NCBI GenBank assembly: GCA_028291405.1
Contig: JAQGID010000302.1
Coordinates: 1 to 38,450 of the forward strand
Direction of reading: 5' to 3'
Origin: Rhodospirillales bacterium
GTDB lineage: Bacteria > Pseudomonadota > Alphaproteobacteria > ATCC43930 > CGMCC-115725
DNA: 38,450 nt
How positions within the stretch are numbered: the stretch's first letter is position 1; each line of letters starts with the position of its first letter. The notes under the pieces are model-generated. The model saw only the letters and a list, made by a program, of their open reading frames with translations. It had not been told where the DNA came from and did no database searches. A program made the position numbers and the translations under genes. Below, piece after piece: positions 23,279 to 27,290 of the stretch.

Positions 23279-23378
23279 ACGCCGCGCGGCGGCACTCAAG
23301 CGACGGTGATTTGCCGCGCGGCAGCAAGCGACCTATGTGTTCGTCAGTGGATCGGTGTGCTGGCGGAAGAGGCGCGAG

Positions 23379-24359
23379 ATGTTCATCAAGAAAAAACGCG
23401 GCTGGGAGATCCGCGAGAGCGAGGCGACGCCGGAGGCGGTGTTTCGCGACCGCCGGCGGCTCATTCAGGCCGCCGCCGCCGGCGGCATCGCGGCAGTGGC
23501 GGCGCCGCTGCTCGGCTGGGTCGGCGCCGGCCGGGCGGCCGATGCCATGCCGGACCCGACCGCCGATCTCTACCCGGCGAAGCGCAACGAGCGCTATCAG
23601 CTCGACCGGCCGGTCACCGACGAGAAGCAGGTCGAGAGCTACAATAATTTCTACGAGTTCGGCAGCGACAAGGACATCGCCGACGCGGCGCAGGCTCTGA
23701 AGATCCGCCCCTGGACGCTGACGATCGACGGGCTGGTCGACAAGCCGACGACGATCGCCTTCGACGATCTCATCCGCAAGATGCCGGTCGAGGAGCGGCT
23801 CTACCGGCACCGCTGCGTCGAGGCCTGGTCGATGGCGGTGCCGTGGAGCGGTTTCCCGCTGAAGGCGTTGGTCGATTTCGCGCAGCCGCTCGGCACTGCC
23901 AAATACCTTCAGATGGAGACCTTCAAGGACACTTCCTTCGCGCCGGGGCAGAAGCAATTCTGGTATCCGTGGCCCTATACCGAGGGGCTGACGATGGCCG
24001 AAGCGACCAACGACTTGGCCTTCATCGTCACCGGCGCCTACGGCAAGCCGCTCGCCAAGCCGAACGGCGCGCCGCTGCGCCTCGCGACGCCGTGGAAATA
24101 CGGCTTCAAGTCGGTCAAGTCGATCGTCAAGCTCAGCTTCACCGATAAGCGCCCGGCGACCTTCTGGGAAAAGCTGGCGTCGAACGAGTACGGGTTCTGG
24201 GCGAACGTCAACCCGGCGGTGCCGCACCCGCGCTGGAGCCAGGCCTCGGAACGCGTCCTCGGCACCGGCGAGCGCCGTCCGACGCTGATCTGGAACGGCT
24301 ACGGTGAGTTCGTCGCCGCGATGTACGACGGGCTGAAGGGCGAGAAGCTCTTCGTCTGA
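23379..24359 (+). CDS. msrP: Protein-methionine-sulfoxide reductase, molybdopterin subunit MsrP
   Basis: MsrP (YedY) is a periplasmic Moco enzyme that repairs methionine sulfoxide in envelope proteins. The 326-aa product starts MFIKKKRGWEIRESEATPE, the usual N-terminus, with GAAGAGG before the ATG. A Tat signal follows (RDRRRLIQ at residues 23-30, hydrophobic run, cleavage near GRAADA). YNNFYEFGSDK, WTLTIDGLVDKP and the Mo-ligand Cys146 in YRHRCVEAWSM are all present, with FWYPWPYTEGLT and RLATPWKYGFKSVKSIVK near the C-terminus. The heme-containing partner MsrQ, normally next to it, is not in this window. Confidence 0.95.
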   Translation: MFIKKKRGWEIRESEATPEAVFRDRRRLIQAAAAGGIAAVAAPLLGWVGAGRAADAMPDPTADLYPAKRNERYQLDRPVTDEKQVESYNNFYEFGSDKDIADAAQALKIRPWTLTIDGLVDKPTTIAFDDLIRKMPVEERLYRHRCVEAWSMAVPWSGFPLKALVDFAQPLGTAKYLQMETFKDTSFAPGQKQFWYPWPYTEGLTMAEATNDLAFIVTGAYGKPLAKPNGAPLRLATPWKYGFKSVKSIVKLSFTDKRPATFWEKLASNEYGFWANVNPAVPHPRWSQASERVLGTGERRPTLIWNGYGEFVAAMYDGLKGEKLFV

Positions 24360-24365
24360 TCTCGC

Positions 24366-25610
24366 CTAAGCCGCGGCGCGCGAGCCCGCCGCGGCGCCCG
24401 CCTGCAGGAGTTCGGCGAAGGCGGCGAAGAGCTTGCGCATCGCCGGCAGCTTATAGGGATATTTCTCCGGCGGATCCATCGCGTGCACGATCATCGCGAC
24501 GTCCGCCTCGAAGAGCAGCAGTTCGCCGTCCTTGGTCTCGCCGCAGTCGATCGCGAAATAATCGAGACCGGTGCGCTCGGCGAGGGCCCGCAGCGCTGCC
24601 GCGTGACGCGCCGCGAAATCGTCGTCGAAACCGCTCATGAACCGCGCTTCCTCGGCACGCCGCTCGGCGCTGTCGTCCATGCCGGCGCTGAGGTAATGGA
24701 CGATCCAGTGCTCCGAGATGGCCATATGGACCGCAAACGGTCGGCCGGCGACGAAGGCGATACGGTATTTCCGGAAGAGCCCATCGCTTCCGCTGTAATC
24801 GACGAAGGGCGCGACGTAGAGCTCGGCATCGGCGTGGTCGTCGAGATAGGCCCGCGCCGCCGTCGCATCGTCGAGCTTGACGAGGCCTTGCCCGGCGTGC
24901 GAGGCGATCGGCCGGACGATCACTGGAAATTCTAGGCCGGCGACCGAGGATTGGTCGGCGGCGAGCGTCGCGCGCGCGATCCGGATCGTCGGCGGGACGA
25001 CCAGCCCCGGCGCCGACCGCAGCAGCGCATAGGCGCCGTCGCGCGACAGCAGGGCGATCCGCGCCGGGTCGTTGAGGACGTGGGTCGGCCAGGCGTGGAC
25101 GACCGGTCCCAGCGCCTCGAGGACCATCCGGTTGTCGTCGGATTCGCCGACCGCGACGAGGGCGACGTCGTGGTTCGGTATCCCCTCCGGGGTTGCCCCA
25201 CCGGGTGCCAGATAGAGCATGTTCAGCGCGATGCCCGACCCTTCCAGCAGGAAATCGACCGGGGTATTCGCCATGAAGTCGCCGCCGGCCATGAAGGCCA
25301 GGAGGCGCAATCCGGGTGCTTTGCCGGCCGGCGCCGGGCGGTGATAGAGCGCCTGCTGCTGCAGCGCCTGCTGCTGCAACGCCAATCCCTGGCTACGGTC
25401 GCCGGCGAGCTGGGTCAGCGTCGCGAGATCCATCAACGCCGCCGCGTCCTGCGGATTGGCGGTAAGCCGTTCGACGAGATGCCGCTGGACCGGCTGCAGA
25501 TCGGTGCCGGCGAATGCCATGCCGGCGAGCGCCGCGAGGCCGATCGTCACGGGAACGTCGATCGCCGCCTTCGGGGGGAGAGCGGTGGGCGCCGTGCTGC
25601 CGAGGGACAT
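24366..25610 (-). CDS. ATP-grasp ligase-like protein with helical N-terminal region
   Basis: The 414-aa product is unrecognised as a named enzyme. Residues ~38-90 resemble TPR helices (ANPQDAAALMDLATLTQLAG) and include a repeated ALQQQ. Residues ~100-180 form an alpha/beta domain (LRLLAFMAGG, HDVALVAVGES). Residues ~185-400 are ATP-grasp: FPVIVRPIASHAGQGLVKLD (229-247), FRKYRIAFVAGRPFAVHMAI (279-298) and metal-site LLLFEADVAMIVH (364-376), where Asp replaces the more usual Asn. This is the fold of glutathione synthase, D-Ala ligase and RimK, so an amide- or peptide-bond-forming role is inferred. AGGAG precedes the ATG; it lies 31 bp downstream of the PLP enzyme gene and is surely co-transcribed. 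It ends 6 bp from the convergent msrP. Confidence 0.8.
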   Translation of the reverse strand: MSLGSTAPTALPPKAAIDVPVTIGLAALAGMAFAGTDLQPVQRHLVERLTANPQDAAALMDLATLTQLAGDRSQGLALQQQALQQQALYHRPAPAGKAPGLRLLAFMAGGDFMANTPVDFLLEGSGIALNMLYLAPGGATPEGIPNHDVALVAVGESDDNRMVLEALGPVVHAWPTHVLNDPARIALLSRDGAYALLRSAPGLVVPPTIRIARATLAADQSSVAGLEFPVIVRPIASHAGQGLVKLDDATAARAYLDDHADAELYVAPFVDYSGSDGLFRKYRIAFVAGRPFAVHMAISEHWIVHYLSAGMDDSAERRAEEARFMSGFDDDFAARHAAALRALAERTGLDYFAIDCGETKDGELLLFEADVAMIVHAMDPPEKYPYKLPAMRKLFAAFAELLQAGAAAGSRAAA

Positions 25611-25641
25611 CGAGGCTTGCTCCTGGAGAGGATTGGTGACT

Positions 25642-27255
25642 TCAGACGGACGGGGTCGATGCCTGCGACACGGCGCGTGCGACGAGCGCGACCTTGTCGA
25701 ACGCCGTCATCGCCCGTGCGATCACCGCAGCGGTTGCCGCCGCGCCTTGCGTCGCCTCGACGATCAGCCGCGCACTGTTGCAGATGCGCAGGACACTGAC
25801 GGCGTTGCCGTCGCGCGTCCCGCAGGGGACCGGCTGGCCGAGCTCGCACGGCAATGCGGCGAGCGCGTCGTCGGCAGGGTCCTCGACGATGCCGCGCGCG
25901 TCGCGACCCAGCCAGCGATAGGTCGCGGCAACCTCCTCGCGACGAAAGATCTTAGCGGCGCACGGCCCGGCGACGTGGCGGAGGAAGAACGGAAAGATCA
26001 TCTGGATCGCATCCCAACCACCGGTCGGCGTCGTCGCGAGCCGTTCGAGCGACGGCGGGGGAAGCGGCTCGAAGGCAGGATCGCTTGCCAGCCGCTCGGT
26101 GACGGCGCGGGCGAATTTCGCCGCGAATTCGGCGACCGCTGCCTCGGGCACGGCGCGGAATGCGTGCAGCTCCTGCATCGCCGCCTCCCAGCGCAGCAGC
26201 AGCCCGTAATTCTCGACATCGGCCAGCGTCGTCGCGGCGGCCCAGCCGCGCGGCCACTCGGCCTGCGCCGAATAGCAGCGAAGCGCCGGCGGAAGGCGGC
26301 GCAGGCGGAGGCGTCGCGCGACCTCGCCCGGGATCAGCAAGGCGCCGGCGAAAGCCGGCCCGGTGAGGAATTTCGAGCCGGTCACCGCCACCATGAAGCC
26401 GCGCTCGAGATAGGCGCGGAGCGTCGCCGGCGCGAGGCGGAACTGGCAGGCGTCGACCAGGATTTCGACGGCCTGCGGCAAGCGCTGCACCAGTGCCGCG
26501 ACGTAAGCGGGACGCGGCGCGATGATGCCGGTCTTCGAGACATCGACCATCGTGAGCAGGACGCGCTGGCCGCGCCCGGCCGCCTCGGTCGCGAGATCGT
26601 CGATCTGCGCCTCGATCGAATCCGCCGCGCGCAACCCGCCGTCGCCGTCGCGGAGCGCGATCGCGGCGACGTCGGAAATCGTCGCGTCGCCGAGCGGATC
26701 GCCCTCGTGAACGGCGGAGCCGAGCGCCGCGAGCGTGCTGAAATGCCGACCGGCGAGCGCGACGGCGACGCCGCTGCCGGTCTCGCGCGGCTCGACCATG
26801 ATACTGCGCAGCGGCGCCGTCGCGGTGCCGCCGGCGAGCTGGGCGGCGAGGAGATGAAGATCGGTGCCGGAGGCGGCGAAGACGATCTCGAGGCCGGCAA
26901 GGTCGGCGATGCCGCAGAGGTCGGCGAGATCGATGCGCAGCCGGTCGAGCTCGCGCCCATAGGTGACCGCGCCTTTCTCCCAGTCGGCGGCCGCGATGAG
27001 CCGCCCGCGGAGGCGGTCCGCCGCCGCGAAACCGCGGGGAGAGATCGTCGACGCCGTCGACGAGCCGAAGGCGGCGATCGCCGGGTCGGGGTGCGGCGCG
27101 CAACCGTATTTGTTGCGGGTTTTTCCGAGATCTATGGTGATGCGGGAGTCGCCGCCCTCGGTCAGCAGCTGTCCGGTGGCCGGCAATTCGAAGGTCGCCT
27201 TGCGACGCAATGCCGGCGGGGCGGCGGCCAGCGAGATGATTGCTCGCTCGCTCAA
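25642..27255 (-). CDS. PLP-dependent class V-like (aminotransferase/desulfurase fold) enzyme
   Basis: The 537-aa product starts at a TTG (27253-27255); no ATG or GTG is plausible near it, and a 12-codon leader frame overlaps this codon. Fold-type I PLP features are visible: TRNKYGCAPHPDP (46-58), VFAASGTDLHLLAAQLAGG (125-143, phosphate-side loop), VDACQF with Asp268 to pair with the pyridine nitrogen, and Lys295 in TGSKFLTGPAF as the Schiff-base lysine. VDVSKTGIIAPR lies between. The ~120-residue C-terminal domain is not assignable. Class V-like relatives include cysteine desulfurases, kynureninases and serine aminotransferases; none fits well enough to name. It is followed by the ATP-grasp gene, suggesting that its product is the ligase's substrate. 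Confidence 0.8.
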   Translation of the reverse strand: MSERAIISLAAAPPALRRKATFELPATGQLLTEGGDSRITIDLGKTRNKYGCAPHPDPAIAAFGSSTASTISPRGFAAADRLRGRLIAAADWEKGAVTYGRELDRLRIDLADLCGIADLAGLEIVFAASGTDLHLLAAQLAGGTATAPLRSIMVEPRETGSGVAVALAGRHFSTLAALGSAVHEGDPLGDATISDVAAIALRDGDGGLRAADSIEAQIDDLATEAAGRGQRVLLTMVDVSKTGIIAPRPAYVAALVQRLPQAVEILVDACQFRLAPATLRAYLERGFMVAVTGSKFLTGPAFAGALLIPGEVARRLRLRRLPPALRCYSAQAEWPRGWAAATTLADVENYGLLLRWEAAMQELHAFRAVPEAAVAEFAAKFARAVTERLASDPAFEPLPPPSLERLATTPTGGWDAIQMIFPFFLRHVAGPCAAKIFRREEVAATYRWLGRDARGIVEDPADDALAALPCELGQPVPCGTRDGNAVSVLRICNSARLIVEATQGAAATAAVIARAMTAFDKVALVARAVSQASTPSV

Positions 27256-27290
27256 TTCAGTCTCGCTTGCCGACCGGTCACAGCGCGCAT
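27252..27290 (-). other. Possible 12-codon leader ORF before the PLP enzyme
   Basis: ATG at 27288-27290 is preceded by GGAAAGGA at proper spacing and opens a frame MRAVTGRQARLN that ends in TGA overlapping the TTG start of the PLP gene (TTGA). It may serve translational coupling to the TTG. Because short frames arise by chance, the coding call is weak. Confidence 0.3.

Follow-up and report, generated by a model that had tools for sequence, protein, structure and literature searches.

The window, the whole stretch of DNA analysed here, comprises 38,450 nucleotides of contig JAQGID010000302.1 from a Rhodospirillales bacterium (assembly GCA_028291405.1; 6.5 Mb in 461 contigs). It carries two adjoining minus-strand genes, one for a pyridoxal phosphate (PLP)-dependent enzyme and one for an ATP-grasp ligase, and relatives of this pair are commonly encoded together with an amino-acid decarboxylase. 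The PLP gene (25642..27255) is a 537-residue open reading frame (ORF) with a TTG start, separated by a 31-bp spacer (25611..25641) from the downstream ligase gene (24366..25610), which has an ATG start and encodes 414 residues. Frames that overlap these two ORFs lose to them in a codon-usage gene call, which bears out the linked pair described in the original prediction, made from the sequence alone. The upstream end given there, position 27290, has to be moved: the ATG at that position opens another frame, which reaches a stop after 12 codons, and the PLP gene begins at TTG 27255 or slightly downstream; residues 1–20 of its model are of low confidence. The PLP gene is no chance frame, because relatives occur in 7 of 41 genomes and are encoded by 291 stretches of the genome collection, 80 of which were kept. 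Our simple gene caller misses genes in AT-rich loci, and the counts below therefore come from six-frame searches.

Both proteins fall below every Pfam and NCBIfam cut-off, as expected from the initial failure to place either in a named family. For the PLP protein, no match was obtained at E values up to 1, either in these two collections or when its profile was compared with solved structures; the window protein did not match the class-V aminotransferase family PF00266 within the same limit of 1, nor did its relatives in loci L043, L104 and L105 at E up to 0.1. The AlphaFold2 model, built from an alignment of 46 relatives, has a mean pLDDT of 91.3. In a second structural comparison, it superposed on the class-V enzymes AGT, NifS and PhnW with Z scores of 21–23 and root-mean-square deviations (rmsd) of 3.5–4.5, the window protein exceeding them in length by about 120 residues. 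The model thus fits fold type I. Its assignment to class V within that fold is less sure, because the Foldseek ranking mixes in other fold-type-I groups (BioF, SphA, Egt2 and PvdN), and families beyond those listed among the VIA-align structural matches are also possible.

The predicted active site agrees with this placement. Lys295 (motif TGSK, codon 26371..26373, minus strand), the proposed PLP lysine, and Asp268 (motif DACQ, codon 26452..26454, minus strand), which we take to be the partner of the pyridine nitrogen, are invariant both among 7 aligned relatives and in the larger set of 46, and Gln271 of the same DACQ motif is invariant in the 46 aligned sequences. The three residues align with the lysine of 'SGHK' and with the D-x-x-Q motif ('DGAQ') of E. 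coli SufS, in an alignment that is weak (E 0.007, probability 5%) but sensible; for the PLP enzyme and the ligase, no usable profile alignment with E. coli IscS and RimK was obtained. In the same weak alignment, the SufS site whose histidine presumably stacks on the cofactor ring corresponds to the stretch ETGSG, with its invariant Glu158, in the window PLP family. The class V-like enzyme with Lys295 and Asp268 that had been proposed is accordingly retained.

The ligase consists of an ATP-grasp fold (residues 101–410, 24381..25310, minus strand) preceded by a tetratricopeptide repeat (TPR) hairpin (residues 31–84, 25359..25520, minus strand). Its sequence matches to RimK models are below threshold (PF08443, 10.9 of 21 bits; TIGR00768, 15.1 of 143.4 bits), and its profile, compared with solved structures, retrieved TPR proteins and a weak LysX match (E 0.0057). 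The AlphaFold2 model (alignment of 38 relatives, mean pLDDT 92.4) is closest to RimK (5zct, Z 19.0, rmsd 3.6, 267 residues aligned) and LysX (3vpd, Z 18.7). Altogether, RimK, LysX and ArgX (Z 18–19) outrank the D-Ala ligases (Z about 15–16.4), and the structural matches cover residues 99–414. RimK, LysX and ArgX ligases attach an amino acid to the end of a protein. The window ligase differs from these closest structural matches by its sub-cut-off sequence score and by the added TPR hairpin, and their E-x-N end motif is replaced by EAD. Arg233, Lys281, Arg283, Asp355 and Glu368 are invariant among the aligned relatives. The hairpin was recognized by a profile match to consensus TPR proteins, OGT and SPINDLY, and the model places helices at 39–51, 56–68 and 72–85; paralogs of the ligase bear longer TPR parts, and the protein at locus L067 has a long TPR array. 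The helical N-terminal region noted earlier is thus a TPR hairpin, and the comparison with class-V enzymes, RimK and D-Ala ligases that had been proposed as a check upholds both enzyme classes.

The third partner, a PF00282 amino-acid decarboxylase, was first met when reading the neighbourhoods of relatives. One scan of a named genome collection for PLP relatives, from which 80 of 291 stretches were kept, yielded 59 loci with all three genes, 7 with ligase and PLP genes and 14 with the PLP gene alone. In 57 of the 59 trio loci, all but L067 and L074, the genes run decarboxylase–ligase–PLP along a single strand. Fused ORFs occur in five loci, and every one of the three pairings is fused somewhere: ligase–PLP in L045 and L063, decarboxylase–ligase in L053 and L085, and decarboxylase–PLP in L067. 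In the window's own genome, the decarboxylase gene lies on a separate contig, C428 (L164), where it is cut by the contig end. The truncated copy (153.7 bits) and those of L033 (202.6), L044 (227.9) and L175 (190) all exceed the PF00282 cut-off of 27 bits. Among NCBIfam equivalogs none was above cut-off, the best being the diaminobutyrate decarboxylase RhbB (176 and 191.5 of 900 bits), and PanP, MfnA and the other NCBIfam decarboxylase models likewise stayed below theirs. The loop tyrosine, presumably a catalytic element of such decarboxylases, is kept as Tyr337, which argues for a true decarboxylase and gives no pointer to its substrate. Among the taxa represented in these loci are Gallionellaceae, Sulfuricellaceae, Methylococcaceae, Comamonadaceae, Oxalobacteraceae and Geobacteraceae, as well as one contig that bears the label Riflebacteria, with Methylobacter tundripaludum SV96 (L065), Sulfuricella sp. 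T08 (L043) and Variovorax sp. YR216 (L086) among the named organisms. A fixed fourth partner was sought among the outer neighbours, and none of more than 200 clusters recurred across most loci. A two-gene unit, as originally proposed, is therefore rejected, since the decarboxylase accompanies the pair in 59 of the 80 PLP loci; the window pair supplies two of the three enzymes of a cassette whose conservation is supported by these observations. In L055 and L057, two ligase copies placed divergently stand with the PLP gene, and the decarboxylase was undetected in these stretches.

The three genes are also inherited together. Among the 41 genomes, 7 have the PLP gene and 12 the ligase; all seven of these family genomes with the PLP gene hold a high-scoring decarboxylase (576–927 bits), and G001, which lacks the PLP gene, reaches only 228 bits. 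Across 398 Pseudomonadota genomes, searched at E limits of 1e-20 for the PLP enzyme, 1e-20 for the ligase and 1e-100 for the decarboxylase, the three proteins were found in 25, 32 and 39 genomes, respectively, and all together in 19. Pairwise co-occurrence is far above expectation (p below 1e-18, over genomes that are not independent). The two window genes adjoin in relatives, and the ligase is present in 19 of the 25 PLP-bearing genomes, so that the neighbourhood search suggested at the outset finds their linkage genuine; the separation in nearly all relatives that would have refuted the pair was not seen. Other genomes hold the system in part: G170, G340 and G388 have the PLP gene alone, G226 is without the ligase, and in G186 and G199 the ligase and the decarboxylase were found but no PLP match. 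Over 49 complete loci, a set that leaves out those with a fragmented PLP match or with one of the three proteins missing or short, the distances of the three proteins correlate (r 0.59, 0.60 and 0.82; permutation p 0.001, uncorrected for the species tree). The window PLP enzyme is nearest to betaproteobacterial proteins (56% to L045). Because it groups with them across a branch of support 98, which separates it from its own family and genus g32 in a quick tree with 16 named loci dropped, lateral transfer of this enzyme is suggested.

Our neighbourhood analyses linked the cassette to flagellar genes. Searches were made with E. coli flagellar proteins, then in a stricter two-pass run and then in a wider run, and all three agree. 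In the wider run, flagellar genes were present in 31 of 91 loci with the ligase and a partner (the window included), compared with a single one of 20 control windows and a single one of the 25 PLP loci that lack the ligase, and with none of 8 decarboxylase-only, 8 ligase-only and 4 other loci. The Fisher test of 31/91 against 2/65 gives p 8e-7, uncorrected for kinship. The stricter run was positive for 24 of 85 trio loci, but for none of 8 family relatives and none of 20 control windows; among its further sets, none of the 12 ligase paralogs or others and none of the 8 decarboxylase-only loci were positive, and the PLP-only loci gave 0/9 and 1/14. Six proteins in the reference set of the wider run derive from L031, L150 and L101, which are themselves among the loci counted; with the E. 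coli references alone 27 of the 91 are positive, L031, L071, L093 and L101 depending on the added ones. Among loci of at least 15 kb the fraction is 25/60, and the nearest flagellar gene lies within 2 kb in 27 of the 31 positive loci. The sole positive control window had motA/motB-like matches, and L108, the sole PLP-only locus with a positive result, lies on a contig of 3.5 kb where the other genes were out of view.

The flagellar contexts vary by taxon, and comprise flhB/fliS/fliD/fliC, flgA–I, fliE–I, fliL–O, flgK/flgL, flaG and motAB/fliA. Flagellin, flbT, flgK and flgE surround the trio in genus g32, and reading the neighbours by eye gave flagellins, FlbT and hook genes in that genus and FlgA, FliF, FlaG, YcgR and others elsewhere. 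Among the named carriers, the Methylobacter and Sulfuricella loci have flagellar neighbours and the Variovorax locus does not. Two arrangements are particularly close. In G010, a member of the window's family, the order is PLP gene–flagellin–flbT–flaF–ligase–decarboxylase, and in G123 the series fliC–flaG–fliD–fliS is followed on one strand by decarboxylase, ligase and PLP genes; flagellin, flbT and flaF in the former and fliC, flaG and fliS in the latter were verified with Pfam. Flagellin_N was found in 32 of 33 genomes with parts of the system, the single miss being 68% complete, compared with a phylum baseline of 330 of 398 genomes; this higher rate is consistent with a flagellar role, but is weak by itself. 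The link of the cassette to flagellar genes is thus supported. One could argue that the association is incidental and that a mobile cassette has landed in the flagellar regions of some lineages. The cassette does move, as the betaproteobacterial affinity of the window PLP enzyme in the quick tree indicates, and repeated counting within genus g32 inflates the flagellar number. Against the enrichment over the comparison sets, even with kinship uncorrected, and the several distinct flagellar contexts in unrelated groups, we consider this explanation very improbable.

Taking these results together, we propose a flagellum-linked three-enzyme pathway, to which we give an even chance, with flagellin the most likely acceptor and the TPR part serving for docking. 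First, the PF00282 decarboxylase would convert an amino acid into an amine, judging from its family. The class V-like PLP enzyme would then make or transform a second building block bearing an amino group, or else finish the product; its role is the least clear step of the pathway. Finally, the ATP-grasp enzyme, going by its fold, would activate a carboxylate with ATP and form an amide bond. The acceptor may be flagellin itself or a donor destined for flagellin, docked on the ligase through its TPR part. We infer the substrate, product and acceptor alike. Modification of flagellin is the simplest reading because an amine-making decarboxylase, an amide-forming ligase, a TPR part of the usually protein-binding kind and placement among flagellar genes come together in one cassette. 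Whether the product is a small molecule or a protein modification had been left undecided in the original prediction; the flagellar neighbourhoods favour the latter without proving it.

Several observations weigh against the proposed pathway. In the window's genome, no flagellar gene was found within the window or around the decarboxylase on C428. The same holds for 60 of the 91 loci, 25 of which are under 15 kb, and 7 of the 31 positive loci belong to one genus, so that the counts are not phylogenetically independent. The control windows were drawn from four alphaproteobacterial genomes, and flagellin is common in the phylum (83%). The trio is also incomplete in places: G326 and G404 have ligase and decarboxylase at flagellin with the PLP match absent, and G073 and G136 hold decarboxylase and PLP enzyme with the ligase absent. 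PLP relatives without the ligase stand beside a nonribosomal peptide synthetase (NRPS) gene on plasmids, and others are found in Rhizobium chromosomes; gene neighbourhood does not show chemistry.

In another explanation, the trio makes a diffusible amide from an amine and an amino acid, and flagellar proximity reflects shared regulation or an insertion hot spot. A decarboxylase, an ATP-grasp enzyme and a PLP enzyme are usual components of small-molecule pathways, the lack of a detected flagellar neighbour at most loci fits this view, and so do the major facilitator superfamily (MFS)-like transporter gene, identified by eye, that adjoins the trio in G016 and G007 and the PLP relatives directly after NRPS genes (L105 7938–9509, L134 11971–13506 and L135 11971–13467). 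However, a ligase that joins two small molecules would not usually carry a TPR part, and the varied flagellar-cluster sites in unrelated taxa, together with the gene order of G010, are more specific than shared regulation needs. We therefore regard a small-molecule product as somewhat unlikely. The NRPS-linked plasmids belong to Cupriavidus necator, Sinorhizobium medicae and Rhizobium jaguaris, and a phosphopantetheinyl transferase-like gene lies nearby. The Rhizobium chromosomal PLP loci examined showed thiamine-type, glutathione S-transferase and regulator genes, all by eye except the glutathione S-transferase, and no NRPS. Given these settings, the reaction of the PLP enzyme need not concern flagella, and since it is found alone directly after NRPS genes on plasmids, the enzyme probably can act on amino-acid-derived products outside them. 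NRPS tailoring as the main role was rejected, the trio loci not being beside NRPS genes.

Known systems offer partial parallels. Methanofuran synthesis follows a similar logic: the PLP decarboxylase MfnA makes an amine, which the ATP-grasp enzyme MfnD joins to glutamate. A methanofuran-like pathway was rejected, as the trio decarboxylases score 70.6 and 85.8 against the MfnA cut-off of 299.4 bits, MfnA being the one Mfn protein compared. In Caulobacter, the TPR part of the flagellin glycosyltransferase FlmG binds flagellin (PMC7591256). As in the window ligase, an N-terminal TPR part precedes the modifying enzyme; FlmG, however, is a glycosyltransferase with about 313 residues of TPR, whereas the window protein is an ATP-grasp ligase with a hairpin of about 54. 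By analogy, the TPR part of the ligase would most likely hold flagellin as that of FlmG does. The Shewanella ATP-grasp protein SfmE is required for full flagellin modification, and its deletion alters the flagellin mass (PMC3765264). Like the trio, the sfmABCDE genes encode an ATP-grasp enzyme together with flagellin-modification genes, but its partners are NeuB-like, thiamine pyrophosphate-dependent, reductase and methyltransferase proteins; no decarboxylase or PLP enzyme is mentioned, the words 'pyridoxal' and 'decarboxylase' being absent from the text of that report. The region for flagellin glycosylation in Clostridioides difficile likewise includes an ATP-grasp gene, CDR20291_0245 (PMC5207246). 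Searches of a partial library of open-licence PMC papers for flagellar ATP-grasp, pyridoxal or decarboxylase enzymes yielded no description of the trio.

The SfmE and CDR20291_0245 genes belong to glycan-type modification clusters, and the trio might by the same token supply a flagellin glycan with an amide substituent, leaving the protein itself without direct modification. A 277-residue gene beside the PLP gene in one g32 genome may, by eye, encode a glycosyltransferase, although it has no Pfam match. Neither nonulosonic-acid genes nor glycan genes of other kinds turned up repeatedly next to the trio, in searches that covered the trio loci and not the genomes beyond them, and we judge this route improbable.

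The ligase also occurs in other settings. The other TPR/ATP-grasp protein of the window's genome (L037, G000:C245, 8987–10453, minus strand) adjoins a giant ALTTAQ-repeat protein (PF20080; 10820–19001, plus strand), the only such locus found in that genome. In L049, L056 and L120, ALTTAQ proteins are likewise encoded close to the trio. They are possibly a second kind of substrate. A more specific version of our proposal would be a non-glycan amide modification, spread laterally through Proteobacteria and beyond, in which a TPR-guided ligase joins the decarboxylase-derived amine to flagellin or, more widely, to a surface-fibre protein; the ligases beside ALTTAQ-repeat proteins would then be the same enzyme type acting on another fibrous protein. 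We put this forward tentatively, as rather unlikely in this full form. Elsewhere, TPR/ATP-grasp paralogs lie beside cyclase-like and large hydantoinase/oxoprolinase-like genes, both by eye (L040 8798–10159 and L041 8463–9824, in G007 and G016). In L107 (9528–11682), from a Hyphomicrobiales metagenome-assembled genome, EutB (PF06751, ethanolamine ammonia-lyase large subunit) and a EutC-like gene directly follow the ligase and PLP genes. A ligase relative in L167 (7700–10062; G361) overlaps by 4 bp a class-V aminotransferase gene that appears SerC-like by eye; the trio's PLP enzyme and decarboxylase are both absent from this genome. Next to the window pair, the gene at 23337–24359 encodes MsrP, the catalytic subunit of a protein-methionine-sulfoxide reductase (422 of 207 bits), with no evident link to the pair.

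Modification of flagellin is mostly known as glycosylation and methylation, and flagellin is recognized both by phages and by the immune systems of plants and animals. The cassette is carried by soil, freshwater and root-associated bacteria. If the proposed pathway is correct, flagellin modification would gain a new enzyme logic that combines amine making, PLP chemistry, ATP-grasp amide ligation and TPR docking, and two protein families unnamed in Pfam and NCBIfam would acquire a testable role.

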